DNA of 47,137 nucleotides from a virus: positions 1 to 47,137 of the IMG/VR virus record IMGVR_UViG_3300031141_000009, one strand, 5' to 3'. Below are positions 3,816 to 23,000 of the stretch, piece after piece; the first letter of the stretch is position 1; every line of letters begins with the position of its first letter. A program made the position numbers and the translations under genes. The notes under the pieces were generated by a model. It searched no databases. It was not told where the DNA came from and saw only the letters and a list, made by a program, of their open reading frames with translations.

Positions 3816-5390
3816 TTATATTAACCATGTTAAATCTTCTTCTGTATCGCCAGTCTGCATTTTCCATGGATTATTTGCTAAGGTGTTATTGCTATTATAA
3901 GCGCCTTGTGCCGTTCCCATGTTATTCAATGCAAGTTTGTTCAATGCTAAACCTTCGCCGTATAACTTTAATGCGTGATCCCTAACATACATTCCAATTG
4001 AAAATGCCATTGTTAAATCGTCATTATATCCACGTTGCGCTTCAGCTCTATGGCCTAACCATATGAATACAAACAGTTCCTCAATCAATCGCTTTGACCT
4101 TACAATACATGTTTTTTCTCTAAAATAAATATCAAGTTTCGATATCAAAAGTGGTCGGGTCCTAGAAGATGTAGTAAATCCAGGTGTCATATTTTCCCTA
4201 TTCTTGAGGTCATATCCTTTACTTAACTGTGTTGCTGCATCGTGAACTCCTTCGTGCTTATACGTATAATATAAGTTACGATAATTTCTATCAACGGCTG
4301 GTTGAATGGCTGCCCATCCAATGTTTGCGTTCTCAATCACAAGTAGCGCTTCATTGTATTCAGTTGCAACATTTACAAGCATGTTACCAAACTCTTTTGT
4401 GTTGATCTGTCCTCGATATTCTGCAACCTGAGTCATTGTAGATGTTTCCAATACATGGAACGTGGAGTAATCTGAGCTATCCCCTCGTGCAACATCGGCT
4501 ACTACCATATATGTCTTATTGTAATCCACATACTCCCAGATCCAATATTCTTGCTCCATCCCACGTTTTTCTATTGGTTCCTGCACCATGTTATCCATGT
4601 ACCATTGTAATAGATCTCCTGGAATAACAGTGTTACCAGATGATATGAAGTCACAATCGCATTCCTGCGCTGCCATTTTCTTACCAAGTAGAGAATCTTG
4701 CTTATCTCGCCAATCTTGATGTCGATCAGGATGTCTAGACCAGTGTAATCTAACTGGAAAGAATTCTCCAACCTGTTGTTCTGCGTCTACCCATGTTTTA
4801 TGAAATACGTTACCTGTTCCGTTTGGTGTAGATAGCATAATAGCTCTACCACCAGTTGCTAATGTTTGCTGTGCTGATGTCCATATCTCAGGTAGTTTAT
4901 CAATAAATGCTGCTTCATCGATTACCAGTAATGATAGCGCTTCAGATCTTGCTGCATCTGGTGCACTCGATACGGCTTTAATATGTGATCCATTCTTGAA
5001 CCTAAGTGATAGTCTATTGTCTTCGGATGTTCCAACTCTAAGCCAGGTTGGCAACAAATCATGCATTACCCTTACCTTCGTTACTAAATTTTTTGCTGTT
5101 TCTTGCTTTATTGCAATAACTAATACGTTGAAATCCTCTCTAAATACCATTGACCACAATGAATATCCCGCAGTAAGTGTTGATATGCCGAGTTGTCTAG
5201 ATTTTAGAATTATTGTATAGTTGTTTTCATTGAAACTATCCAGTAAATCCTCTTGGAAGTCGTATAAATTGAATTTTATCTTTCCACGTGTTGGATGCTG
5301 GATGAAACAATATTTCTTCATGAAATATATTGGATCCTTCGAGCAACGTAGATATTCTTCTGCTAATGCCTGTTTTACTGATTTTGCCAT
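3816..5390 (-). CDS. 17: Large terminase subunit, T4 gp17-like
   Basis: This is the packaging motor ATPase and headful nuclease that docks on the portal. In the N-terminal ATPase domain, Walker A is SRQLGIST at residues 64-71 (the T4-type SRQxGxxT form), Walker B plus catalytic Glu is LLVIDEA at 154-160, and a coupling-type motif LSTPNG is at 186-191. In the C-terminal RNase H-like nuclease the three acidic clusters are VVADVARGDSSDYS (Asp299), LLVIENANIG (Glu353) and GYNDDLTMAF (Asp457/458). The 524-residue length is a little short of T4's 610. All key residues are present, so the enzyme should be active. No small terminase (gp16) was recognised nearby. A GATATTTATA motif lies 40 bases upstream, inside the end of the preceding gene. 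Confidence 0.96.
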   Translation of the reverse strand: MAKSVKQALAEEYLRCSKDPIYFMKKYCFIQHPTRGKIKFNLYDFQEDLLDSFNENNYTIILKSRQLGISTLTAGYSLWSMVFREDFNVLVIAIKQETAKNLVTKVRVMHDLLPTWLRVGTSEDNRLSLRFKNGSHIKAVSSAPDAARSEALSLLVIDEAAFIDKLPEIWTSAQQTLATGGRAIMLSTPNGTGNVFHKTWVDAEQQVGEFFPVRLHWSRHPDRHQDWRDKQDSLLGKKMAAQECDCDFISSGNTVIPGDLLQWYMDNMVQEPIEKRGMEQEYWIWEYVDYNKTYMVVADVARGDSSDYSTFHVLETSTMTQVAEYRGQINTKEFGNMLVNVATEYNEALLVIENANIGWAAIQPAVDRNYRNLYYTYKHEGVHDAATQLSKGYDLKNRENMTPGFTTSSRTRPLLISKLDIYFREKTCIVRSKRLIEELFVFIWLGHRAEAQRGYNDDLTMAFSIGMYVRDHALKLYGEGLALNKLALNNMGTAQGAYNSNNTLANNPWKMQTGDTEEDLTWLI

Positions 5391-6576: not shown

Positions 6577-7152
6577 TTACCCAGTTATATTAGTCAGTTT
6601 TAATTTTTCGTTTTCAATGTATACATCAAATTCAGCTAGCAATTCGTCGTCGGATTTTCCACCTGACCAATCTTCAATGTCTCCAGCTTCTGATATTTGC
6701 GTCTTTGATCCACGTGTTTCTAGCCAGTCTTTAAATTCTGCCCTAGACTTGTGTAGCCATCCTTCAAAATTTCTATTTATTTGACTGTTTTGCCATGCAT
6801 CATATGTGCCATTTGATCGCATTTCCATTTCAGCATCAGTTTGACAGTGCAGACAATGTTTAAATCGCTTATACATGTATTTGTGCTGATCAGCTAGCAT
6901 TCTACTGTCGCATTTTGGACAATGTAATGGTATCTTTGCCATTGCTCTAGCCTTATCCAATTTTGTAACGGTCTGTTTTATTCCGTTTTTGATTGTCCAA
7001 GTTTTACCATTGTTTTCCCAAACGTCACCTTCAATGTGTTTAGCCATTGATTCTTTGGTGTAGCCTGATCTAATTTGAGTTTTGTTAGTGTAGTCGCCTG
7101 TCACTAAATTTCTCATTCGTTGTACTTTGCTTTTTGATATATGCTTCTTCAT
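6577..7152 (-). CDS. Zinc-ribbon protein of unknown role
   Basis: 191 residues if started at the Met codon at 7152. A longer frame opens at 7206 but would overlap the upstream gene by 47 bases. The 7152 start gives MKKHISKSKVQRMRNLVTGD, a basic opening familiar from T4-like marine phages, with AGAG upstream. Cys78-Pro-Lys-Cys81 and Cys100-Leu-His-Cys103 form a four-cysteine zinc ribbon, suggesting nucleic-acid or protein binding. The N-terminal 70 residues are basic and the C-terminal 35 acidic. Residues 149-156 read SKTQISEA, identical to a peptide in the head-assembly-type protein encoded at 1030-1866 and fitting a prohead-protease cleavage site. The gene follows the nucleotidyltransferase-ligase gene by 7 bases. 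Function unknown. Confidence 0.8.
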   Translation of the reverse strand: MKKHISKSKVQRMRNLVTGDYTNKTQIRSGYTKESMAKHIEGDVWENNGKTWTIKNGIKQTVTKLDKARAMAKIPLHCPKCDSRMLADQHKYMYKRFKHCLHCQTDAEMEMRSNGTYDAWQNSQINRNFEGWLHKSRAEFKDWLETRGSKTQISEAGDIEDWSGGKSDDELLAEFDVYIENEKLKLTNITG

Positions 7153-7159
7153 TGTAACT

Positions 7160-9439
7160 CTATTTATTATATTTAAACAATCCCAATATTTGATTGATCG
7201 GAGCAAATGCGCCTGTTAATTTATATGTGTTGTTTTTATATACGAAGACTATTCCTTCGTTTGAAACTATTTTATCCATACCACCAAGTGATTGTAGTCG
7301 TTCTAATTCTAATTTTAACTTGGCTATTTGTACATCATCGCCTTTTTTCATAATATCAGCTATTGCTGATTTTAATTCCTTTTGCATATCTCTTGCTGCC
7401 GAACGAGGATCTACGGCTAATACCGATTGCATATTGTATAATACCTCGGCACCCAATCCTAAGAATATCTCTTCGAATTTTCTATTGTTGTTCTTAGCTA
7501 TTTTTTTATGATCTTTTTTATCAATCTGTTTAGCCCAAGCAATTAACTTTTCATCTACCAATGTTTTCTTGTCTAGTCTAAACGATTTTTCACCAAAGGC
7601 CCATCGTTTAGTCAATCCCATTAATTTGTCTTTGTCAAGTGTTTCGGGTGCATTTTCATTAATAAATTTTGTCCACCAACGCTGATGATATTCTGCTAAA
7701 CCGTCGCTATCTTTGAGACCAAATTCTGATTGTAGTTTAGTTATCATGCCATAGTATTTAGATTGCGAAACTTTGAAACTCTTTGATTGAGGTAACACGG
7801 TGATAGGTGGTCCCTTTATTGTATATTTATCTTGCACATGTCCGTTTATATCTTCTATCATTTTAGCTAGTTTACCAGCAGCAGGTTGATTGCCTGATGT
7901 AGGATTACCTGACATGTCATATGTGGTTGTATTGTGGAATATAAGTAAAGCTTGACCATACGGAATAACATTTGTACTTCCTGGCCATATTACTTCTAGG
8001 TTCATGAATGTTTCACCATCAGCAAAGATTGATATTCTTTGTTTTTTCGATAACTTGCCTAATGCCGTTTCTAGATCCTTCATTGCAAAATTAAAACCAT
8101 CGGATAATTCTCCTCTACCTGCCATCCAAGATTTAACTCCAGATAAATTCATTGCATTTTCACCCTTATCTTTTAAGTGTCCTTTATTTCTAGCTGCAAT
8201 GAGTCCTCCTTTTTCTTTCCAAGATATAGCTAATGCTTGTCCATCTGTCTTTTCACGTGTTAATTTGAGCTGACCTTTAAGTGCGTCTTTTACAATTTTT
8301 TTGAGATCTGAAAATGTTAGATTCATCTTTATATCGAATGGATGATTCATATGACCCCAAGCTCCGCCTTCTAATAGTAGCCCTTCGGTTAAAGCTTCTC
8401 CTGGTTTCTGCTTCTTCATTGGTTCTTGCTTGGAAGATGATATAGATGCGTCTGCATCCATAAAGCTTAAGAATTCGTATCCAGCAACGGTCGCTATATG
8501 CTTAGACCATTTTGTCCATCTGGTATATGCAACTCTTCCTTTTTTATCTTTAAGTAGATTTGTTCCACCATATTCGCCTGGTACACCTATTGGAAAATAA
8601 GATACAGCTCCTGTTGGTCCTCCTGAGAAATCCTTTTTGAATTCTGTATCATGTTGAAAGAATTCGTCTTCTCCACTTATATAATTAAGTACTTCCCAAC
8701 CTAAATCTCTTGCGGATTTTTTGCCGAATTTCTTCCAAGATTTCTGATTTCCCCAATATCCCCTAGGTCCATCGTCAACAGAATCTCCCATGTGGGTTGC
8801 GTTTTCCTTAAGTAAATCTGGAATGCTAAAATGGGTGCAGAATCTTTCGACTAAATCCTTTGCGTCGATTAACTTAGATGTTATTAAATCATATGCAGCT
8901 TGGTCAAATTTTCCATATATTTTTTTAAAATTTTTCTTACGTTTAATTGGATCTAGATCTGATAACATGTTTCTAACATCTGTTCCACTTAATGTAGATA
9001 ATCTAGGTAATCCATAAACATATCCAGCATCAACATGTCCCTGCGTCATGTCTGCATTGTAGGGTGAGTAATACTTACCACCTAGTCTTCCTGCGTCTTT
9101 TTGTCCTACTGCTGTAATGTACCGTGTATCTTTGTTGAACTTAGATAATATCTCCTTTGGATTGTATGGATTTTTAACTTCTACAATTCTAGTGGAATTT
9201 ATACCGAACATTTTAGATATTATACTTTGCTTTTCTTTAAAGTTCATTGGAGATTTTGGCATTTGAACTTTGTTAGATGTACATATATAAACGTTATTCT
9301 TTCCAAATTTGTCTACTAAATGTTTGTAGTTCTTATAATGCCCAGAATGAAACGGTTGGAATCTGCCTGCATATACTACAACAAGCTCATCTTTACTTTC
9401 ATTGATAAACGATTCAGCTATCCAATTACCTAATTTCAT
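7160..9439 (-). CDS. NadM-like nucleotidyltransferase fused to KxDG ligase-like domain
   Basis: A 759-residue fusion. Residues 17-200 are a HIGH-type nucleotidyltransferase: VVYAGRFQPFHSGHY with HSGH at 31-34 and the closing STLSGTDVRNM at 148-158, the pattern of archaeal-type NMN adenylyltransferases (NadM) and related enzymes. Residues 210-335 are unassigned. Residues 360-745 carry motifs of the covalent nucleotidyltransferase (RNA/DNA ligase) superfamily: KTDG at 397-400 with the candidate nucleotide-binding Lys397, AARNKGH at 415-421, GETFMNLEVI at 475-484, EGIVFVY at 728-734 and YKLTG at 739-743. I recall this C-terminal part from phages as an unnamed (DUF6267-type) family. The first residues, MKLGNWIAES, resemble a capsid-targeting peptide (IAE|S), and LTE|G and LLE|G occur at 350-358 between the domains. 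The start overlaps the kinase gene stop by four bases (ATGA). Substrates are unknown. Confidence 0.88.
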   Translation of the reverse strand: MKLGNWIAESFINESKDELVVVYAGRFQPFHSGHYKNYKHLVDKFGKNNVYICTSNKVQMPKSPMNFKEKQSIISKMFGINSTRIVEVKNPYNPKEILSKFNKDTRYITAVGQKDAGRLGGKYYSPYNADMTQGHVDAGYVYGLPRLSTLSGTDVRNMLSDLDPIKRKKNFKKIYGKFDQAAYDLITSKLIDAKDLVERFCTHFSIPDLLKENATHMGDSVDDGPRGYWGNQKSWKKFGKKSARDLGWEVLNYISGEDEFFQHDTEFKKDFSGGPTGAVSYFPIGVPGEYGGTNLLKDKKGRVAYTRWTKWSKHIATVAGYEFLSFMDADASISSSKQEPMKKQKPGEALTEGLLLEGGAWGHMNHPFDIKMNLTFSDLKKIVKDALKGQLKLTREKTDGQALAISWKEKGGLIAARNKGHLKDKGENAMNLSGVKSWMAGRGELSDGFNFAMKDLETALGKLSKKQRISIFADGETFMNLEVIWPGSTNVIPYGQALLIFHNTTTYDMSGNPTSGNQPAAGKLAKMIEDINGHVQDKYTIKGPPITVLPQSKSFKVSQSKYYGMITKLQSEFGLKDSDGLAEYHQRWWTKFINENAPETLDKDKLMGLTKRWAFGEKSFRLDKKTLVDEKLIAWAKQIDKKDHKKIAKNNNRKFEEIFLGLGAEVLYNMQSVLAVDPRSAARDMQKELKSAIADIMKKGDDVQIAKLKLELERLQSLGGMDKIVSNEGIVFVYKNNTYKLTGAFAPINQILGLFKYNK

Positions 9440-10140
9440 TTTGTGTTCCTTAATTCTAGTTCAGCGTCTATCCAACTCTGTGCTATTTTATTTTGTATTG
9501 GGCGACGAACAAATTTAGACGCTGTTTGCTTGATTGATTTTGAGAAGTCAGCTTTAACTGAATTGTCTATGCTAATGAAGTTTTTGTCACCAAATAATGT
9601 TTTATATTTTTTTAGATTTGCTTGGCATTCTTTCCATGATCTGTTTACCAATTCTACTGGTACCCGTCTTGGTCTAGATTCGTTTCTAGATAATGCAACT
9701 TCTAGTGTGGTATTTATGAATGTCATATAACAGTCGTAGCCTTGCTTTTTCAACATTTTTACCTGGGCAGCGATCTTATTGTAGTCTTTACCTGTACCGT
9801 CTATCAATAAGCCAAGTTTGCCATTCAAATAATGCTTGAGTCTAGAACTAGTTATTGATTTTGCTGATTTGCGTATTTGTTGGGATTTGGCATATTCTTT
9901 AGCACTTAATTTTGTCATATCAAGGTCAATATTATGTTTTGCCATGATTAGCTCAAATGCTGAGTCTGAATTTACTCCCTTTAGTCCGTCGCTTGATACG
10001 GTTGGAGTTGATTCCGGCATACCGAATAATGAATTTGCTGCGAAGGATTTGCCTGAGCCTGGACCACCTGACATAAAAACTGCCTTAAATATTCCTGGAT
10101 CATATGTGCCTTCATTCAATAAATCTATCATCTTTATCAT
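9436..10140 (-). CDS. P-loop kinase, zeta-toxin/polynucleotide-kinase type
   Basis: A 234-residue P-loop protein. Walker A is GGPGSGKS at residues 25-32, NSDSAFE follows near 57, a Walker B-like GLLIDGTGKD lies near 110, and an Arg-rich lid (SRNESRPRRVP) near 152-162. The arrangement fits the zeta-toxin/polynucleotide-kinase-like group, which phosphorylates nucleotides, sugars or nucleic-acid 5' ends; the substrate cannot be read from sequence. It is translationally coupled (ATGA) to the nucleotidyltransferase-ligase gene, so the two probably act together, possibly in end healing and sealing. The opening MIKMIDLLNEGTYDPG resembles a capsid-targeting peptide with LNE|G. A GATATTTATA motif ends only four bases before the first ATG; a second Met codon lies three codons later. 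Neither start has a good Shine-Dalgarno. Confidence 0.85.
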   Translation of the reverse strand: MIKMIDLLNEGTYDPGIFKAVFMSGGPGSGKSFAANSLFGMPESTPTVSSDGLKGVNSDSAFELIMAKHNIDLDMTKLSAKEYAKSQQIRKSAKSITSSRLKHYLNGKLGLLIDGTGKDYNKIAAQVKMLKKQGYDCYMTFINTTLEVALSRNESRPRRVPVELVNRSWKECQANLKKYKTLFGDKNFISIDNSVKADFSKSIKQTASKFVRRPIQNKIAQSWIDAELELRNTK

Positions 10141-10392: not shown

Positions 10393-11208
10393 TTAACCTC
10401 CAGTAATTGTTATGTTGTCTAGACATATATCGCCCTTATATGTTGTTCCAGATTTTGCGAAGAACCATACGTATACGCCAGCTGCATTGCCTGCAATATT
10501 GTTCAAGTCAATTTCAGCTTTTCTCCAATATCCTTGTGTAGATGTACTGGTATGTCCTGAAGTCTGCTGCTGGCCTGTTATCCGATCTGATGTCGTGGTA
10601 GCTGTCCCAGTGTTATTTGTCCAATGTAATATGTCACATCCGCCACCAGTATCAGAAGTAAATCCAAATCCAGAATAAGATTCTACGGAACTATCTGCGC
10701 TGGTTGCACTATCTGTAATTGCTACACCCAATGATCCTATATTCGCACCATACATATGATACCAGAATTCCAACTTTAAGGTGCTATTTGCTGCGGCCGA
10801 AGATAGGTCTATCTCAGGAGTTCGCAATACAAATCGCTTATTATATTGGCCAGATGTTTCAGTATATATATATTTACTGGCAGCAGTTGTTGCTCCAGTT
10901 GTTAGTGATTCGTTCATACCGTATTTAGGCCCAGTATTAGATGACGGAGTTGTTCCACCTTCAATATCCCATTTCCGAGTTGAAGTCGTTGAACCATAGA
11001 TTGTCGCAGCAATATTATTCAACCAACCTGTTGGTGATACTCCATAGCCTTCGGATATGGCATTAAAGTTTTCCGATAGTAACGTTGCGCTTGATGCAGC
11101 TGGAATTGCTATTGCCGTCATATAGTATATGGAAGCTTTTGCTACACCAGATACTTTTGCAATAGTAGATATAGGGACGGCTGATACTTTCGCTATAAAC
11201 GCTGGCAT
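10393..11208 (-). CDS. MAM-domain adhesin-like virion protein
   Basis: 271 residues. The N-terminus contains imperfect repeats of IAKVS/AKVSGVAKAS (residues 4-26), a type of short repeat seen in phage structural proteins. From residue 45 to the end the protein resembles a MAM domain: the hallmark FWYHMYGANIGSLGVAI lies at 148-164, preceded by ENFNAISEGYG, NTGPKYGMNES and LRTPEIDLSS and followed by YWRKAEIDLNNIAG and a closing GDICLDNITITG. MAM domains are beta-sandwich adhesion modules of animal surface proteins, also frequent in secreted proteins of marine Bacteroidota. Here it probably binds surface glycans or proteins, or decorates the virion. It overlaps the upstream fibre gene by one base (TAATG). 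The domain call is good; the binding partner is unknown. Confidence 0.8.
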   Translation of the reverse strand: MPAFIAKVSAVPISTIAKVSGVAKASIYYMTAIAIPAASSATLLSENFNAISEGYGVSPTGWLNNIAATIYGSTTSTRKWDIEGGTTPSSNTGPKYGMNESLTTGATTAASKYIYTETSGQYNKRFVLRTPEIDLSSAAANSTLKLEFWYHMYGANIGSLGVAITDSATSADSSVESYSGFGFTSDTGGGCDILHWTNNTGTATTTSDRITGQQQTSGHTSTSTQGYWRKAEIDLNNIAGNAAGVYVWFFAKSGTTYKGDICLDNITITGG

Positions 11209-12989
11209 TATGCTATCTCAATCCAAGTGTTATCAGGGCTAAAATATATTGGTGCAGTTGTACCTGTGCTATAACCAATTATTCTAACGACATCCCCGGT
11301 TGCAGTTGGTTTAGTTTTTGATAGTCCACCGGCTGTTGTGCTTAAGTATATAGGGACTCCGGGTTCGCCAGCTGGATTTGACGTTGGATGGATGAGACCG
11401 CTAACCAGCATACCATCAGCTAATGCACTTGTTCCTACGGCCATTCCTAACATTGTTGTTCCATAGTTGACTGTTGCTGATGCAGCATGCCATGTGCCAG
11501 AACCCTTTAGATAGTATATTCCGCCAGCTACTGTTGAACCAGTTGCGGTGTATATCACATTTCCTTGTGCGGGTCGATATGTTGCGTGCAGTGAAGTTGG
11601 AAGTAACACAGTTTGATCAACATCTAGGTTATTACCAATAATTGTGTCAGTGAATACTGCAAGGTCATTAAACGTTGCACGACCATTGAAAGTTGACCTC
11701 CCTTCAGTAGTAACATCACCATTATTATTTATCGTCATTCGGACTGTATTATCTGTGCCAAACTGAATATCATTTGTTGTACTACCACTAATACCTATCA
11801 ATAATGCGTTGGCAGTTGTACCAGAATATGGTAAATCATTTGGAGCATCACCAGCGTCACCAACATGGCCAATATAACTACCAATTCCACCACCATCTTG
11901 ACTAAGTTTTATATATGAATTCTTGGATTCATCATCATTATTTGGATCAGCTGCTATTGTTAATGATGCATTGCCGGTTGTTGTTGATACCACCAAGTTA
12001 CCAGCTATTGTTTGATTTCCACTAGCTAATGCTGTTGCAGTTCCAGCGTTACCAGTAATCGACGTTTGATCGCCTGTATTTGTTCCACTTAAATTTGAAC
12101 CAGCTAATGTACCACTTGCACTTACGTGGCCAGAAGCTGTTACGTCACCATTCATAGTTATCGGATTTGCAGATTTACCTATCCGTATTGGCGTATTATT
12201 TTCATAACCTAAAGTCATAGCGGCAGCAGTATACATCCCAACTGGATGACCCTCAGAATAAAATCTGTCGGCAGATATATCGCCACTTGCACTTACATGA
12301 CCAGAAGCTGTTATATCGCTTAACGAATTTATGCCGCCATACACTTTTAAACCTAGTCCTGCACTACTAGATATTATAGTTTCATTATCAGGTATCAGTG
12401 ATAGGTCTTGATTTGCATATATTTCTAAGTCATCTGGCGTATCCGAATTAACCCCTATGTATGAGTTGGATGATCCTTCATGAAAAAGGACTCTATTGCT
12501 ATTCATATTGAAATTGGACAATACATCTATTGTTGCTACTGGCGAATATATCTTTGGATTAGTAGAAGTCCATGTACTACCACCCCTAAGTTCTATTCCC
12601 CTAGCTGATGGTCCTACGAATAACGAACCTGTGTTGAGACTGTCTCCAATAGATAATCCCTTAAGGACTATTGAATCTAAAGAATGCACAACGCCACTCG
12701 CGCTTATATTGCCAGAGGCTGTTATATTTCCAGTAAACGTATGCTCGTCTGATACTGAATCTCCGAATGCTGTAGATCCTGAGCTAAATGAAGTTGTCAT
12801 GTGTGTTACTGATGATGATATAATATAGTTTTCTGCTGTCAATGTTTCGACTGCAAAATTACTAGATACGCTCGAACCAGAACCATAGTATAACTTACCA
12901 GAATCTAAGTTTATTGCTAACTCGCCTTCTTCTAAGCTTGATGGAACGGAATTACCAGTTCCCCTTTTTATTCGTATTGTCTGTGACAT
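11208..12989 (-). CDS. Fibre-like structural protein with SASG modules
   Basis: 593 residues. The N-terminus (IRIKRGTGNSVPSSLEEGELAIN, then GKLYYGSG) is the module that opens many phage tail-fibre and tropism-determinant proteins. The middle is a repetitive, glycine/serine-rich beta-structured shaft with repeated ITASGHVSASG-type units near residues 86, 224 and 281. The last 120 residues form a distinct non-repetitive domain (YRPAQGNVIYTATGSTV to the C-terminus) that could be a trimerising or receptor-contacting tip. No S74 chaperone is present. The ribosome binding site AAGGAAA stands about 9 bases before the start and a TTGATATTTATA motif 16 bases before it. It is downstream of the 1261-residue fibre and coupled to the MAM gene. 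Exact virion location is unknown. Confidence 0.8.
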   Translation of the reverse strand: MSQTIRIKRGTGNSVPSSLEEGELAINLDSGKLYYGSGSSVSSNFAVETLTAENYIISSSVTHMTTSFSSGSTAFGDSVSDEHTFTGNITASGNISASGVVHSLDSIVLKGLSIGDSLNTGSLFVGPSARGIELRGGSTWTSTNPKIYSPVATIDVLSNFNMNSNRVLFHEGSSNSYIGVNSDTPDDLEIYANQDLSLIPDNETIISSSAGLGLKVYGGINSLSDITASGHVSASGDISADRFYSEGHPVGMYTAAAMTLGYENNTPIRIGKSANPITMNGDVTASGHVSASGTLAGSNLSGTNTGDQTSITGNAGTATALASGNQTIAGNLVVSTTTGNASLTIAADPNNDDESKNSYIKLSQDGGGIGSYIGHVGDAGDAPNDLPYSGTTANALLIGISGSTTNDIQFGTDNTVRMTINNNGDVTTEGRSTFNGRATFNDLAVFTDTIIGNNLDVDQTVLLPTSLHATYRPAQGNVIYTATGSTVAGGIYYLKGSGTWHAASATVNYGTTMLGMAVGTSALADGMLVSGLIHPTSNPAGEPGVPIYLSTTAGGLSKTKPTATGDVVRIIGYSTGTTAPIYFSPDNTWIEIA

Positions 12990-13128
12990 ATTGTGTTTCC
13001 TTATGTATAAATATCAACGTTATTAGAATGTTCCACCATCTATTGTGCCATCCATGTCAGTCAAGCTACCAATGTAACTAGTTGCCGTTATTGTTCCACT
13101 TGCGCTTACGTTACCAGACGCTGTTATA
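12112..13128 (-). repeat. Dispersed 35-base coding repeats (ITASGxxSASG)
   Basis: Four near-identical blocks lie at 12112-12148, 12283-12317, 12693-12730 and 13096-13128. Each reads on the plus strand as CCACTTGCACTTAC, a few variable bases, then CCAGAAGCTGTTA, and each encodes VTASGHVSASG or a close variant. Three are in the 593-residue fibre and one is near the end of the 1261-residue fibre. Weaker versions occur elsewhere in the fibre region. They could serve as homology for exchange of fibre segments. Confidence 0.8.
13006..13017 (-). promoter_or_regulatory. Candidate promoter motif between fibre genes (TTGATATTTATA)
   Basis: This is a perfect copy of the recurrent motif in the 33-base gap between two fibre genes, followed after two bases by an AAGGAA ribosome binding site and the start at 12989. 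The gap is unusual, since most genes in this region abut or overlap. A phage late promoter is the likely role; no experimental support is available here. Confidence 0.5.
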
Positions 13129-16100
13129 TGTGTATCTACCTTTAAATTGCCGTATACTCTAGTCTCCATACTTTCACTGACGGAGAATAGTCGATTACCG
13201 TAACCAACTGCGCCACTATTACTTTCAATCACAAACTTAGCTGCGGGCTTTTGATCATCTGCATCCAATAATATTGCGAAACTTCCAGACCCCTTCTGCG
13301 TTATTGACCCCATTACTTCGTCTGGATCAGATAGTACTGCTGATTCTGCCCTAAGTATAGTTGATCTACTACCAGCTGTAGCATTAACAGCTACGAATCC
13401 CTGAGTCTGAGTTCCTATTTGTACAGATGAGGCTGCGCCAAATGCACCCATGTTGACTTCTTTTACTCTAATTTTTTTGTAATCACTACCTGATATAAAT
13501 TGTACGTCGCCACTTGTATTATCAATACCCATTCTAGCATGCTCTACTGCATCGGATCCTGAATCATCGGCTGATGCACTATAGAATATAATTGAACCAG
13601 TTGAAACGTGAATGTGTCTAAATGGGAATCGCTTGCTACCCAATGAATGGTATTCTGGTCTATCCGGAATCACATCTCCACCAACTATTGTTGCTCCATT
13701 CCTAACGTATAATGAATAATGAGCTTCACCGGGTCCCTTGAAGAACGTCTCAAGCTTACCATCATTATACGTTTGCTTTTCAGATCCAGATATACCAATT
13801 ATTGCAGGTCCAGACTTCAAATTACCCTCTATTGCATGGTTATCAGTTGTTGCATTTCCGAACGAAGTGTTACCAGTTGATGTTATGGTTGCAAAAGTTG
13901 CATTTGTGTTGGTTGTTGCCTTTGTATTGATATTTGTTTGCAATATTGAGCTAGATGCATTTAATTGTGCGTTAGTGGAATAGGCTGTTAAGTCTTGATC
14001 TCCACTATTATGCCCTATTATATTGGATGCGCTGATATGTCCGCTTGCACTAACCGTTGTTACATTTGTTATTGCATTACTTGCCATATCTAAAGTCTGC
14101 GTTGCAGTATGGTCGCCTAGATCATCTGCTCCAGCGATAGCCGTTGAAAGAGAAGCCGAAACATCAGCAAATCCACCTAAAGAGAATGTGCTAGTTACTT
14201 CTAAGCTACCAGTTATAACTGCATCTCCAGTATATGGAAAACCTGCGCCTGATCCTCCAGTGATTCCCTGATATGCAGATGCGCTTAGTGTACCTGCTAT
14301 TTCGAAGTCGCCTATCAATTTTAGTGGTGATGTTATTGTTTGTATTGCACCAGCAGAACTCAAAGAGAATTTATCCGGATCTATATAATTGTACGTTAGA
14401 GGGTAGTATGTTACCAATCCCCTAGAGGCGTTACGATCTTCCTTCACATATGTACCAGCGAACTGTTTTTTCGGATAATAGACATCGTAAGTAGCATTAT
14501 TTGATTGTGAAGGGTAGTTTTGGAACCAGACAGTATCTCCTGATGATGATACTACATATTTTACGCCATATACACTGTGTGATGCATAAGTTGTATTTAT
14601 ATGGCTGCCGGACGGCTCACGATTATCCAAGTCAAGATAGCCAGCTAAATTGATAAAGCCCGATGATGATGGGGACGTTATGGAACCGGATATTAGACTT
14701 ACTGTGCCAGAATTTGTATGTACAGGATCGTCATAATAGTCCTTCAGATATGTTGGTGTCATTAAATCATACATATCTAACATAGGCCAATTATGAGCCT
14801 GTTTCTGTGATGCGACAGAATCTGCATATTGTATAAATGGGATATCAGAGGAATAGACAAAATCTGTAAATCCACTATTATCATGCATCATAGCTTTTAG
14901 TGTTTCAATAGTAGTGGTATGGTTAGGATCATTGGCAAACTTACCTTGATGGTGACTCCCAGCTTGCCATAGATCATTCTGTATGACCATTTCTCCAAAC
15001 TTCAAGATTGATCGGTTCGTTGGATTCAGTTGACCTAATTCGCCATTTACCAACACAGTATCTTTACCATATGGCAGTCCACTAGCTGTAACATCGTTTA
15101 AACAGATAGATGCCTTGGAGTTCATACTTTTATCATATACGAAGAATGGGATATCTCCAAAACCAGGGGACTGTGTGTTATCAAATCCGACGTCTACCGT
15201 TGTACCGAATCCCAGTGCTCCCATGTATGACGATTTCATACCAAATATACTCCAAGAATTGAGGAAGAGGACGCCATCCGAATTATGGCAATTTTCCGGA
15301 TAGTATAGGTTTTGTGTTTGAGTTGAGCCTCCGGTAAAATGGTCACTGACGAATGTATGTGCGGGAATTTCCTGTAGATTTGATCCAGTGGAAGATCCGT
15401 AATACTTTATGGAATGATCTGCGTATGGATAACCTGCATATACCTGTTCTACTTGCAATCTATAATCTGAATCTATAGGGTATACTGATGCAGATACGTG
15501 TTGATAGCATTTGCTCGTATTTATTAATTGTCGTAAACCATCTGCTATTTCAAACTTGGTTTTATTAGTTATATCAAACTCTATACGGGAATTTGTGTCT
15601 CCAGCATACCACGCTCGTTGGACTTTTGTATTTTGTTGATCAGGCAGAATTTGATTTACAGCACGAACGTTGAACGGGATATTACCATTGGCTCCATCAG
15701 TATATTGTAGATTTAGATAATTGGAAGATGTTTCAGTTGCATGGTAATCCCATTTATCGGCTATGGAATGTTCGAAATAGTGATGTCCAGTCAGATCAGA
15801 TGATTCAAAATTTGATGATGTAAAGCCAATACTAAATCCAAAACCCAGTGGCATATGGATAACGGGTATTAATAGTTGGTTGTCGGCGCCATCTGTATAT
15901 GGTGCACCATTTGCGTCTGAGTCATTGTTTATTAATATGGATGATGAATTTCTGAAGTCGTGTCTTGCAAAATCATGATTATAATATGCTCTTTTGTATG
16001 GGGATAAACTACCGACGCCAATTGCAGCTGTTTGGGCCCCAATAGTAATTACACTAGAATCTGCGTCGAATGATAGATTTGTTTCGGTAGTCGAATCAAT

Positions 16101-16808
16101 AGCAGTAATTCCTCCGCCACCTGATGAAGCTGCGCCAGTTGCTCCTATATATCTATATCCAACTATCCACAGCGGCTTGGCATAGCCACTCATATCTGGT
16201 CCATCTCCATTACTCTGGTCGCCACAATACATTATTCCCTGATAGTAATCGAACGCTGCTCCTCCGAAATTCTTACCAGTCTGCGTTCTACCACCGTATG
16301 GTATAGCATTCGAACTAGGTCCATTTGTCGATGTATCGTTTTCATATACAACCGCAGCATATCCTGGTCCAAACTTAGTTGGATTTAACCAATTCTTGAA
16401 CCGGCTATCGGAATATTCAGCAACTTCGCCGGCTTGAACATCACCAGTATTAGCCTGGCTAGCTGATATGAATGCAACATATGTTTGGCCATTGCCGTCC
16501 ATATCAGTTAGTGGCATAGTTATTTTTTCAAAATTTGGATCAGTACCTATACCAGTTGCCGATACAAATGCACCATCGTCCCATATTTCAGCAGTTGTTG
16601 CAAATGTTCCATCCCAAGTGCGACTTGTTGCAAATTCTGGCGCTACTGATGCATATTCAATGTCGCCAACGTCAGATAATAGTTCAGCTGAGTATATCTG
16701 GTGACTAGCTTCTAAGTCTTCACCTGATATTGGTCCTGGTCCAGTGTGTAGCTTTCCAAAAGCATGTTTAAATGACGCTTTACGTTGGTCGGTTGTATTG
16801 AATGCCAT
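13023..16808 (-). CDS. Large tail-fibre-like protein ending in IDGGTF
   Basis: 1261 residues. The N-terminus (NTTDQRKASFKHAFGKLHTG) looks like a virion-docking segment. Residues 60-870 hold large non-repetitive stretches rich in aromatic residues and Asn/Gly, with no catalytic motif recognised. The last third is a repetitive SASG-type shaft (ITNVTTVSASGHISASN, HITASGNVSASGTITA) ending in DGTIDGGTF. The same C-terminal hexapeptide type ends the 206-residue protein encoded at 25569-26189. Residues 1040-1160 include FKGPGEAHYSLYVRNGATIVGG and RPEYHSLGSKRFPFRHIHVS, a layout recalling phage fibre knobs. The start has GGAG about 6 bases upstream, two bases after the 63-residue gene. Probably a receptor-binding or side fibre; the receptor is unknown. 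Confidence 0.8.
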   Translation of the reverse strand: MAFNTTDQRKASFKHAFGKLHTGPGPISGEDLEASHQIYSAELLSDVGDIEYASVAPEFATSRTWDGTFATTAEIWDDGAFVSATGIGTDPNFEKITMPLTDMDGNGQTYVAFISASQANTGDVQAGEVAEYSDSRFKNWLNPTKFGPGYAAVVYENDTSTNGPSSNAIPYGGRTQTGKNFGGAAFDYYQGIMYCGDQSNGDGPDMSGYAKPLWIVGYRYIGATGAASSGGGGITAIDSTTETNLSFDADSSVITIGAQTAAIGVGSLSPYKRAYYNHDFARHDFRNSSSILINNDSDANGAPYTDGADNQLLIPVIHMPLGFGFSIGFTSSNFESSDLTGHHYFEHSIADKWDYHATETSSNYLNLQYTDGANGNIPFNVRAVNQILPDQQNTKVQRAWYAGDTNSRIEFDITNKTKFEIADGLRQLINTSKCYQHVSASVYPIDSDYRLQVEQVYAGYPYADHSIKYYGSSTGSNLQEIPAHTFVSDHFTGGSTQTQNLYYPENCHNSDGVLFLNSWSIFGMKSSYMGALGFGTTVDVGFDNTQSPGFGDIPFFVYDKSMNSKASICLNDVTASGLPYGKDTVLVNGELGQLNPTNRSILKFGEMVIQNDLWQAGSHHQGKFANDPNHTTTIETLKAMMHDNSGFTDFVYSSDIPFIQYADSVASQKQAHNWPMLDMYDLMTPTYLKDYYDDPVHTNSGTVSLISGSITSPSSSGFINLAGYLDLDNREPSGSHINTTYASHSVYGVKYVVSSSGDTVWFQNYPSQSNNATYDVYYPKKQFAGTYVKEDRNASRGLVTYYPLTYNYIDPDKFSLSSAGAIQTITSPLKLIGDFEIAGTLSASAYQGITGGSGAGFPYTGDAVITGSLEVTSTFSLGGFADVSASLSTAIAGADDLGDHTATQTLDMASNAITNVTTVSASGHISASNIIGHNSGDQDLTAYSTNAQLNASSSILQTNINTKATTNTNATFATITSTGNTSFGNATTDNHAIEGNLKSGPAIIGISGSEKQTYNDGKLETFFKGPGEAHYSLYVRNGATIVGGDVIPDRPEYHSLGSKRFPFRHIHVSTGSIIFYSASADDSGSDAVEHARMGIDNTSGDVQFISGSDYKKIRVKEVNMGAFGAASSVQIGTQTQGFVAVNATAGSRSTILRAESAVLSDPDEVMGSITQKGSGSFAILLDADDQKPAAKFVIESNSGAVGYGNRLFSVSESMETRVYGNLKVDTHITASGNVSASGTITATSYIGSLTDMDGTIDGGTF

Positions 16809-20000: not shown

Positions 20001-23000
20001 CTGATAGATAATTTGATGTCTCAACTTCTACAATTGGATTGGTTATCAATGTTTTCTGCAACGATAGCATTGTTAACGTAGCAGGCGTTATAGATGGGGA
20101 ACCAGATATTGTTGTCCCACTAGTTATATTTGCAGACAATGTATGTGAGTTTGCATTAAATGCAGAATCATTCCAACTTGATGTGTATGTCGATACCAAT
20201 CTGCCGCTCACATATTCAGATGTTGCCGCTGATGCAGTTGCCAATGTTAATGATGCGATGTTAGAAGAATTGTCTGTAAACTGTATACTAGTTGTATTTG
20301 CCTTTGGACCAAACGGCTCAGTTGTTGTTGATGTTATTCTATATTGTATTATAGCTTCATCTAGGTGCTGAGCCTGGTAATATGGCATAGCAATTAGTGT
20401 GTCTTCTTCTGTGGTTAACAGTGATGCATTGAATCCGTATAGTATTCTAGCTGTTCTAGTTGCTGCGCCAATTCCGGATCCATAACTTGTTGCTTCAACT
20501 TCAACAGTAGAATCAGTTATTTCCAATTCGTCGTGCGCTGACATTGTTAATGCTGCAGATGCTATTGCTACCACTGCATTACTTAGGTTGTTACCAGATA
20601 GATCTGATGATATTGTTCGAGAGCCGACATTGAAAGTTGATTCTTGCCAGCTAGATGTGTAAGTGGTTACACGTTGATCTGTTCCATCATATATTGAGGA
20701 AGCTGTTCCATCAAACGTATCCTTGTTGACAGATATTGATACTAAGTTCGAACTATCGTCGGTAAATTGTGACGTTATGTAATCATGCTTTGGTCCAAAT
20801 GGCTCAGTGATTTTACTCTTCAATCTATATCTAACTACTGCTTCGTCCTTGTGTATTTGCGCATAATTTGGCTCAGCGTACAAACTGGTAAGTCCAGATT
20901 CCAGTATAGATGAACCATAACCATACATTAGTTTGGCTGTTCTATCCGATCCACCATTGCCTGATAGATACGATGTTGTCTCAACTTCAACGATTGATTC
21001 ATTAATAACCGTTGCGTTTACTGATAGTACTGATATCGTTGCTGGTGATATTACGCCTACGTTTATTCCAGTGTTTTGCGCAGCTGTTGTTATGTTTGCA
21101 GTTATTGTATGGTTTCCAGCTACAAATACTGATTCTGTCCAACTAGATGTGTAATGTACAACAAGTTTATCCGATTCATATGTTGGGGATGTACCCGATG
21201 CTACGTGTGAGCTAGTCTTATTTAATATAATAGTTTCTATGGTATTGCCAGCATCCGTAAATTCAACCGTTGTGTCCATGTGTGAAGGACCCTTAGGCTC
21301 AGTGATTGTTGCCGATATCCTATACCTAACAACAGACTCATCCTTATGTTCTTGCTTGAAGTTGTCGTGGGCTTCTAGTGCTGAAATGTCTGATGGCTGA
21401 AGTGTTCCATTATATCCGTATAGTATTCTAGCTGTTCGGCTGGATGTTGGACTATCCGAAAGATATGCCGATTCCAGTTCAATATTTATGTTTGATACTT
21501 CGATGTCCTCAATTGGATTAACAATTACCTGTACAACATTTGATGGTGTTGCGTGGTGGTGATTATGGGTACCATGTCGTACCCCATCATCTAGGTTATT
21601 TATGTCGGTTACACCTGAAACTGTTCCAATATTATGTGTTCCAGTTTGTAGTGGTATATTAACAAAATCATCTAGACCAATTACAGCTGTTGTTCCAAAC
21701 GCATTTCCAAATTCTGTTGCAATTGCGTTAGATCCAATGATTTTATATATTCCAACTGTATCTGCGTGCGTATATATTGTTGACGTGCCGTCATCTAGTA
21801 TTTTTATTTCAGTGTCATGTCCAGCTACAGCTGTATATCCATTTGGTTCAGTTATTGTTGCTCCAACCTTCAATCTAACTAGCGATGACGTATATCTATT
21901 TGCTAAACTTGACGTTGTGGTTGCAGTTGTATAATTATCGTACATCATGTCGACGTTAATTGTTTCAACTTCATTACCAGTATATGCGTCTTCATTCAAT
22001 GATAACGTTATGTTTGATATGCTAGCCGTAGCCGGGGGAGTTATTGCAACATTTACAGCCAAACTGCCGGTACCATTCGGGTTGTCATCAAACACTTCAA
22101 CAGTATATTCATTTACATATGTTGCAGTATCATTTGATATTATATTATTAGATGTGTCAATTGTATTGTATGCTGATACAGACATAGTTACATGTAATTG
22201 GTCAGACGTTAGTGAATTATATGATAATCCTGGTGCCTGTGTTTCATATGTTATTTGTGTTGTATTTTCTGTGTCATTGTTATGGTCTATGGTTGACGAA
22301 AATCGATGTTGATTTGACGATACATGTTGATCACTTGTCATAAACGCATTGATACCACGTAGGAAATCAGATGTTGCCTCATCTGCGGTTATGTTTAAAT
22401 CAGATGTTGTTGAAAAGTCAAGTACAACTGATCCAGTTATTTCATCGTGATTTATTATTATCGGCAACGCTGATGTTAAATTGACGACTGGGTCAACATT
22501 GATGAAGCCGTATATTGTTATTGATGTAAATAGATTCTTAGCAATACCGATAGCTGTATCTGCTGCATACACCATATATCTATGTGTACCTGGAGCTAGA
22601 TCATTTTCGTATGGATCTACACCAGTGAGGTCGGGCACAGTTGCACCATCGGATCCAGTATAATATGATTGCGCTCCGACTTGTAATCGAGTGAATCCAT
22701 TTTCAATTAGCTTATAGAATGCATAATAGTTTGGTGCAAAATTGTCAGATGAAGTTGTATGTATTTCAATGTCTGATTTACTTGCCGTCTGTTGACCAGA
22801 AACAAGTTGTACATATGTATCTATTGACTGTGGAGGGTCTAAGTCTAATGCCGATTGTTTTCCAGTGTAGAAGTCTTGTTCAAATATACCAGTAAGGCCA
22901 GATCCATCCCCAATAAACGTTGTAGCGTTTATATCGCCGTCAACATTTAACGAGCTTGAAATAATTAAACCCGTTTTGAATTCTGCTGCGCTTCCAGATT

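Follow-up and report, generated by a model that had tools for sequence, protein, structure and literature searches.

A 47,137-nucleotide stretch of viral DNA, IMG/VR record IMGVR_UViG_3300031141_000009 (analysed whole and called the window below), comes from a T4-like aquatic (marine) phage and carries two overlapping genes on its minus strand: one encodes a P-loop kinase, the other a single polypeptide that joins an adenylyltransferase domain to a ligase-like domain (Table 1). The two genes share a 4-nt ATGA overlap, and both open reading frames (ORFs) and their junction lie where a first-pass annotation of the bare sequence had placed them. Proteins 100% identical to both are encoded on a 147,286-bp IMG/VR record (G001, locus L003), which represents a fuller genome of the same phage and was used for whole-genome checks. 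The reading favoured here, to which we give a probability of about 0.45, is that the two genes form an RNA end-healing and sealing module of this phage.

Table 1. Features of the two-gene module and of its neighbours in the window (aa, amino acids; AF2, AlphaFold2; pLDDT, predicted local distance difference test; rmsd, root-mean-square deviation; residues are numbered within each protein).
Feature	Coordinates	Strand	Basis
P-loop kinase gene, 234 aa, polynucleotide-kinase / PSTK / zeta-like	9436..10140	-	ORF; Pfam; AF2; VIA-align
Walker A P-loop GGPGSGKS, kinase residues 25-32	10045..10068	-	nearly invariant in kinase alignment
Capsid-targeting-like peptide of kinase, MIKMIDLLNE|G (putative)	10111..10140	-	[IL]xE in 34/37 family kinases
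Gene of fused adenylyltransferase / ligase-like protein, 759 aa	7160..9439	-	ORF; junction sequence; full-length relatives
Capsid-targeting-like peptide of fused protein, MKLGNWIAE|SFINE (putative)	9398..9439	-	[IL]xE in 47/51 family members
NMNAT/PPAT-type HxGH adenylyltransferase domain, residues 17-194	8858..9391	-	PF01467 E 7.7e-5, above cut-off; VIA-align Z 12.9, rmsd 3.0
Middle region, residues 195-350, with conserved VDDGP motif	8390..8857	-	pLDDT mostly under 60; alignable in relatives
Ligase-like covalent nucleotidyltransferase domain, residues 355-759	7163..8377	-	invariant motifs; weak RNA-ligase fold matches; motif I register with T4 Rnl2
Lys397 codon, predicted motif I nucleophile	8249..8251	-	K.DG in 49/49
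Glu728 codon, motif IV	7256..7258	-	EG[ILV].F in 49/49
Lys740 codon, sole motif V lysine	7220..7222	-	K.TG 49/49, K.K 0/49
Large terminase gene, T4-type, anchoring the locus in the packaging region	3816..5390	-	PF03237 E 5.6e-11
Gene of Zn-ribbon-like protein adjoining the module	6577..7170	-	homologue in 79/93 fusion loci

The kinase matches the Pfam families AAA_33 (E 3.6e-10) and Zeta_toxin (E 2.6e-10), and the earlier call of a kinase from its P-loop is borne out by a predicted fold of the Pnk/PSTK type (AF2 model pLDDT 82.9). In VIA-align comparisons its closest counterpart was the polynucleotide kinase of Clostridium thermocellum (Z 15.7, rmsd 2.7 over 165 aligned residues), followed by O-phosphoseryl-tRNA(Sec) kinase (Z 15.1), zeta toxin (12.9) and T4 Pnk (12.5); the Pnkp1 subunit of the solved Pnkp1-Rnl-Hen1 RNA-repair complex also matched (Z 12.4). 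Within the family, the P-loop and D59 are nearly invariant and the lid arginines R156 and R158 are invariant, and the P-loop, general-base aspartate and lid arginine of T4-type 5'-OH polynucleotide kinases are all present. Zeta toxin was considered as the identity of the kinase and is not preferred: it ranked first by E-value in Foldseek, but fell below Pnk and PSTK in VIA-align, and no antitoxin-like partner was seen. A separate kinase-like group was noticed among loci L004-L198, consisting of P-loop proteins of ~195 aa that start with MKxFRDFIFE..GGPGSGK and bear a T4-like targeting peptide.

The N-terminal part of the fused protein contains both HSGH (residues 31-34) and SGTDVR (residues 151-156), corresponding to the HxGH and SxTxxR signatures of NMNAT and NadM domains. 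The NadM-like domain of the first-pass annotation is accordingly retained as regards its NMNAT/PPAT-type predicted fold and its PF01467 match, but HSGH itself is not constant: among 82 fused homologues HxGH occurs in 59 and GxHH in 20, the signature being absent from three, and an SxTxxR-type motif is found in 81. The first catalytic histidine is not conserved across the family, and the window copy has HSGH. A copy of the middle region that follows this domain is fused to a kinase in one relative (L109).

The motifs of the C-terminal domain lie at residues 397-400 (KTDG), 415-420 (AARNKG), 480-484 (NLEVI), 728-732 (EGIVF) and 739-743 (YKLTG). In a 10-sequence alignment K397, D399, G400, R417, N418, E482, N490, E728, G729, K740, T742 and G743 are invariant, and all 49 dereplicated homologues carry K.DG, ARN, N[VIL][IV].Y, EG[ILV].F and K.TG; because of this invariance, the ligase motifs are judged not to be a chance occurrence. 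The motif III pattern is present in 43 of the 49, and its acid, previously sought in GETFMNLEVI, is the invariant E482 and not E476. The statement that all ligase-superfamily motifs are present was too strong, as motifs I, Ia, III and IV and the first lysine of motif V hold, whereas the second lysine of motif V does not. Likewise, of the residues whose conservation had been proposed as decisive, Lys397 is kept in 49/49, whereas the first histidine of HSGH is not kept in the GxHH members.

Residues 355-759 are well modelled over most of their length, have motifs III and IV separated by a large helical insert, and give only weak fold matches. In Foldseek these were an archaeal Rnl (5d1o, E 4.2e-3, prob 0.75) and a fungal tRNA ligase (8rbj, E 4.9e-3, prob 0.96), the sole ligase-type entries among the top 50 PDB fold matches, and a BFVD fold search returned viral RNA ligases. 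In hhalign, motif I falls in register with that of T4 Rnl2 (EKTDGQ / EKIHGT, P 0.0047), whereas a control pair of true homologues, DNA ligase and Rnl2, scored more poorly (P 0.064). An hhalign hit between kinase and ligase was disregarded, as fused proteins within the kinase alignment had caused it.

The closest parallel to the motif pattern is RLIG1 (C12orf29; human, Yasminevirus), whose residues K73, D75, R89, E174, H195 (motif IIIa), E240 and K253 (PMC11494293) have counterparts in K397, D399, R417, E482, H502, E728 and K740 of the window protein. Both the IIIa histidine and the motif V lysine appear at RLIG1-type spacing, with 20 against 21 residues between III and IIIa (E482-H502) and 12 against 13 between IV and V (E728-K740). 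In contrast, motifs III and IV are 246 residues apart, against 66 in RLIG1, owing to an extra helical segment; the window protein also has a fused adenylyltransferase, and there is no detectable sequence match between the two. On these grounds, the motif pattern is closer to that of RLIG1-type RNA ligases than to that of T4 Rnl2, and the domain is best described as ligase-like with an RLIG1-type motif pattern, a description that stops short of proven membership of a named ligase family.

Relatives of the fusion are encoded on >550 IMG/VR stretches, and matches in an annotated phage collection came from Microcystis phage Mel-JY01 and two huge phages. The combination of domains had been called unusual, a view that no longer holds: uncultured aquatic phages widely encode the fusion, and cyanophages and pelagiphages have a three-gene counterpart (see below). 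A terminase lies within 85 of 93 fusion loci. Kinase linkage could be scored in 58 loci, namely those that reach far enough upstream or have the kinase fused; the kinase was fused in seven, adjacent in nine and absent nearby in 42. The survey of relatives that the first-pass annotation had proposed thus finds the two genes together in part of the family only, and because the kinase is fused or adjacent in only 16/58 loci, the adenylyltransferase-ligase fusion is the core, which the kinase often accompanies. Two genomes without a kinase near the fusion (G006 and G007) encode it elsewhere. Counts of a 'K-L-N' architecture were left unused as probable scoring artefacts.

Several relatives contain an inserted tRNA nucleotidyltransferase (phrog_2244 E 1.2e-60; PF01743 3e-31) or pol-beta domains, and one (L105) has the reversed order, ligase before nucleotidyltransferase. 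Giant relatives of 1735 aa (L102:2002-7209) and 1907 aa (L104:835-6558) include poly(A) polymerase/CCA-adding domains in the same polypeptide, together with an HD domain in L102. Such long relatives, with many shuffled enzymatic domains and predicted injection, can be likened in these two respects to the polyvalent phage proteins (PMC5512222). Many multidomain relatives (L005, L051, L059, L063 and L104) also share a small recurrent domain, VGDTxLxGRFKNKKVxVKxIGxDExGMPTINGKKV. The fused protein is further encoded on contigs SHWS01000026 (L103) and SHWS01000037 (L105), which are filed under a Pelagibacteraceae metagenome-assembled genome; these contigs probably represent phage DNA that was binned together with its host.

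The parallel version is found in Pelagibacter phage HTVC008M, where genes for DUF6267 (PF19782), a small protein, a kinase of the same family and a nucleotidyltransferase stand in a row. When loci with at least 3.5 kb downstream of DUF6267 were counted by a strict profile and motif check, a T/HxGH nucleotidyltransferase followed DUF6267 in 42/42, with the kinase between them in 26; 110 control loci of other phage DNA (452 kb) gave no hit for either enzyme. An iterated nucleotidyltransferase profile was discarded, having drifted into a neighbouring small domain. The DUF6267-kinase-nucleotidyltransferase set occurs in hundreds of sequenced cyanophage genomes, where DUF6267 is filed as 'unknown function'. 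DUF6267 was absent from all 14 records with the fusion (positive control 6/6), and the ligase-like profile from six DUF6267 phages and T4. The two share the order HxxH, KxDG, acid, NxIxY, His, EG, single Lys, with median spacings in DUF6267 and the fusion of 246 against 248 residues (III-IV) and 14 against 12 (IV-V), besides the same kinase family and a related nucleotidyltransferase alongside. They differ in that the DUF6267-associated nucleotidyltransferase is mostly TxGH-type, threonine replacing the first histidine, and is a separate gene in the loci examined; in phrog_455 it is fused, in reverse order. A search for significant homology between the profiles of the C-terminal domain and of DUF6267 found none: hmmscan of the window protein with PF19782 gave no hit, hhalign E-values of 0.23 and 0.1 were not significant, and a PDB sequence search with the DUF6267 profile returned chance hits, which limits the agreement to motif order and spacing. 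Remote homology between the two domains is likely on this agreement, though unproved, with functional replacement as the alternative. Literature searches on DUF6267 found no paper naming it, though the fusion architecture may have been mentioned before. The small gene of the HTVC008M trio (AGE60462, L016:8477-8989) encodes a diverged form of the VGDTxLxGRFKNKKV domain.

Both module proteins begin with a short amphipathic segment resembling those that direct T4 internal proteins to the capsid. Scored as a 10-19-residue N-terminus ending in [IL]xE within roughly the first 20 residues, this peptide was found in 34/37 kinases and 47/51 fused proteins (92%), compared with 202/732 other ORFs (28%), counts that are not independent, as the sequences are related. 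T4 propeptides likewise end in [IL]xE (PMC9026906), as in the N-terminus of T4 Alt, MELITELFDE. A stricter motif was present in 8/169 ORFs of G001, compared with a shuffle mean of 0.76 (maximum 6 in 500 shuffles) and 3/839 internal methionines, and unrelated proteins share N-termini of this kind (MIKLRNILNE, MIKLTNIIAE, MKLKTILSE, MKLKKILSE). The motif is incompletely specific, as UvsX-like proteins also fit it. A gp21-type prohead protease is encoded in 13/14 records, including G001 (PF03420). Additionally, mass spectrometry of several cyanophages detected NMNAT-like cytidylyltransferases in the virions; the authors allow for contamination (PMC10665884, PMC9602691). To judge from their N-termini, both module proteins are probably head-packaged and ejected along with the DNA.

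RNA end repair is favoured because it unites the Pnk/PSTK-like kinase, the RLIG1-like ligase domain and the fused CCA-adding enzymes. The end-healing function suggested by the first-pass annotation gains from the same evidence, the nearest kinase folds being Pnk and tRNA(Sec) kinase, the weak C-terminal matches being mainly RNA ligases, and relatives carrying CCA-adding or pol-beta fusions. In this scheme, the kinase would phosphorylate a 5'-OH end and the C-terminal domain, an RLIG1/Rnl-type ligase, would be charged with AMP at Lys397 and then seal the RNA, most likely tRNA or another RNA cleaved by host defence nucleases. The adenylyltransferase domain may perform an accessory nucleotide transfer, which would either activate an end or serve to produce or recycle adenylate or nicotinamide adenine dinucleotide (NAD). 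Were both proteins packaged through T4-like capsid-targeting peptides and ejected with the DNA, repair could start at once. From the domain identities, the invariant active-site residues, the recurrent linkage and the N-terminal peptide statistics, all of which are observed, we infer the RNA substrate, the catalysis, the packaging and the role of the adenylyltransferase, the last being the weakest step. RtcB was considered as an alternative ligase and gave no match in 17 records.

T4 itself offers a close precedent, as its Pnkp (PseT) and Rnl1/Rnl2 likewise combine a 5'-kinase-type fold with a lysine nucleotidyltransferase bearing motifs I, Ia and IV. Unlike Rnl1 and Rnl2, the ligase-like protein of the window has a helical III-IV insert, an NMNAT-like fusion and, as in the kinase, an apparent capsid-targeting peptide, which T4 Pnkp and RNA ligases do not have. 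Other differences count against RNA repair. In T4 Pnk the acceptor-site arginine is R38, three residues past the aspartate; an arginine is present at this position in Pnk and zeta kinases and is lacking in the window kinase, and the position was never R in the scored members of its family (F, L, K, Y or I). The kinase also lacks the phosphatase domain of T4 Pnkp, and no 3'-end phosphatase was identified. The second lysine of the classical motif V (K.K), present in T4 Rnl1/Rnl2, is replaced by threonine (K-x-T-G) in every homologue. The RNA-ligase fold matches are weak (E about 4e-3), a PDB hmmsearch with the C-terminal-domain profile gave chance hits and no significant ligase match, and PF09414 was touched by just 2/36 members (best E 0.0077). 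To these are added the 42 loci without an adjacent kinase, some long records in which the kinase family was found nowhere, and the slight or absent enrichment of the targeting peptide in DUF6267 (38%) and its nucleotidyltransferase (29%) over the 28% of other ORFs.

The adenylyltransferase domain invites an NAD-centred explanation, which we regard as unlikely: the kinase would make nicotinamide mononucleotide from nicotinamide riboside, the NMNAT domain would convert it to NAD+, and the ligase-like domain would consume or sense NAD+, as a salvage route or a counter to NAD depletion. The N-terminal domain clearly has the NMNAT/PPAT fold and the GRFQPFHxGH signature, a HIGH nucleotidyltransferase with a P-loop kinase is the plan of NadR (PMC7824862, PMC9503650), and NMNAT-like virion proteins have already been read in this way (PMC9602691). 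However, phage NadM is reportedly always accompanied by NadV (PMC9503650), and NadV (PF04095, NAPRTase) is absent from 13/14 records, the 147-kb G001 among them, although records may be fragments. None of the listed kinase fold matches was a NadR kinase, an absence that proves nothing by itself, and no NAD-ligase Ia domain was recognised. Unlike NadM/NMNAT and NadR, the module has no Nudix domain, carries the ligase-like fusion and varies at the first histidine, which is lost in 20 homologues and is threonine in the parallel trio; the fused CCA-adding enzymes would go unexplained. The NAD-linked half of the first-pass proposal is therefore the less supported one.

The loss of the second motif V lysine, the constancy of the adenylyltransferase fusion beside an optional kinase and the large insert between motifs III and IV would also suit a ligase-like domain that modifies rather than ligates, either by capping RNA with AMP or an NAD-derived group or by AMPylating a host protein, the other two enzymes preparing the donor. 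This is rather improbable, as RLIG1, with one reported motif V lysine, does ligate RNA (PMC11494293), and the fused tRNA nucleotidyltransferases favour RNA ends. Far less probable is repair of DNA, in which the module would heal or seal breaks or ends of the phage genome after ejection. It is consistent with the nearby terminase, the putative packaging with DNA and the activity of Pnk-type kinases on DNA, but a separate gene of this phage encodes an ATP-dependent DNA ligase (G001:7211-8494), for which reason a DNA-ligase role was rejected, and RNA ligases predominate among the fold and profile matches, though one member has a marginal match to the NAD-dependent DNA ligase family (E 0.038).

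RNA repair by phages is already known (PMC7824862), and what is new here is the variant architecture. The first-pass annotation had recognised neither the capsid-targeting-like N-termini, nor the connection to DUF6267, nor the resemblance of the motif pattern to that of RLIG1. It is possible, and offered only tentatively, that DUF6267 and the C-terminal domain belong to one RLIG1-like RNA-ligase superfamily and that, with the kinase and the NMNAT-like enzyme, they make up an RNA-repair kit that travels in the head, is ejected with the genome and is widespread among marine T4-like phages. Cyanobacteria and SAR11 are hosts to T4-like phages that abound in the sea, and the DUF6267-kinase-nucleotidyltransferase set is present in hundreds of the genomes of these phages; linking this set to the fusion, with catalytic residues named, makes a direct test possible. 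Ejection of the proteins together with the DNA would make RNA repair a pre-emptive and not an induced counter-defence, unlike that of T4, and a head-packaged kit would forestall host defences that cut tRNA, ahead of all phage gene expression.

Around the module, the Zn-ribbon-like neighbour is nearly as constant beside the fusion as the terminase; its ORF is listed at 6577-7206 from a TTG, and the start in Table 1 is provisional. Small unrelated genes with a capsid-targeting-like N-terminus lie at 12703-16117 and 20784-21092 of G001 (L110, L111) and are candidate ejected internal proteins. A MAM-domain protein (PF00629, E 1.1e-12) is encoded at 10393-11208 on the minus strand of the window, immediately upstream of the kinase and amid tail-fibre-like genes.

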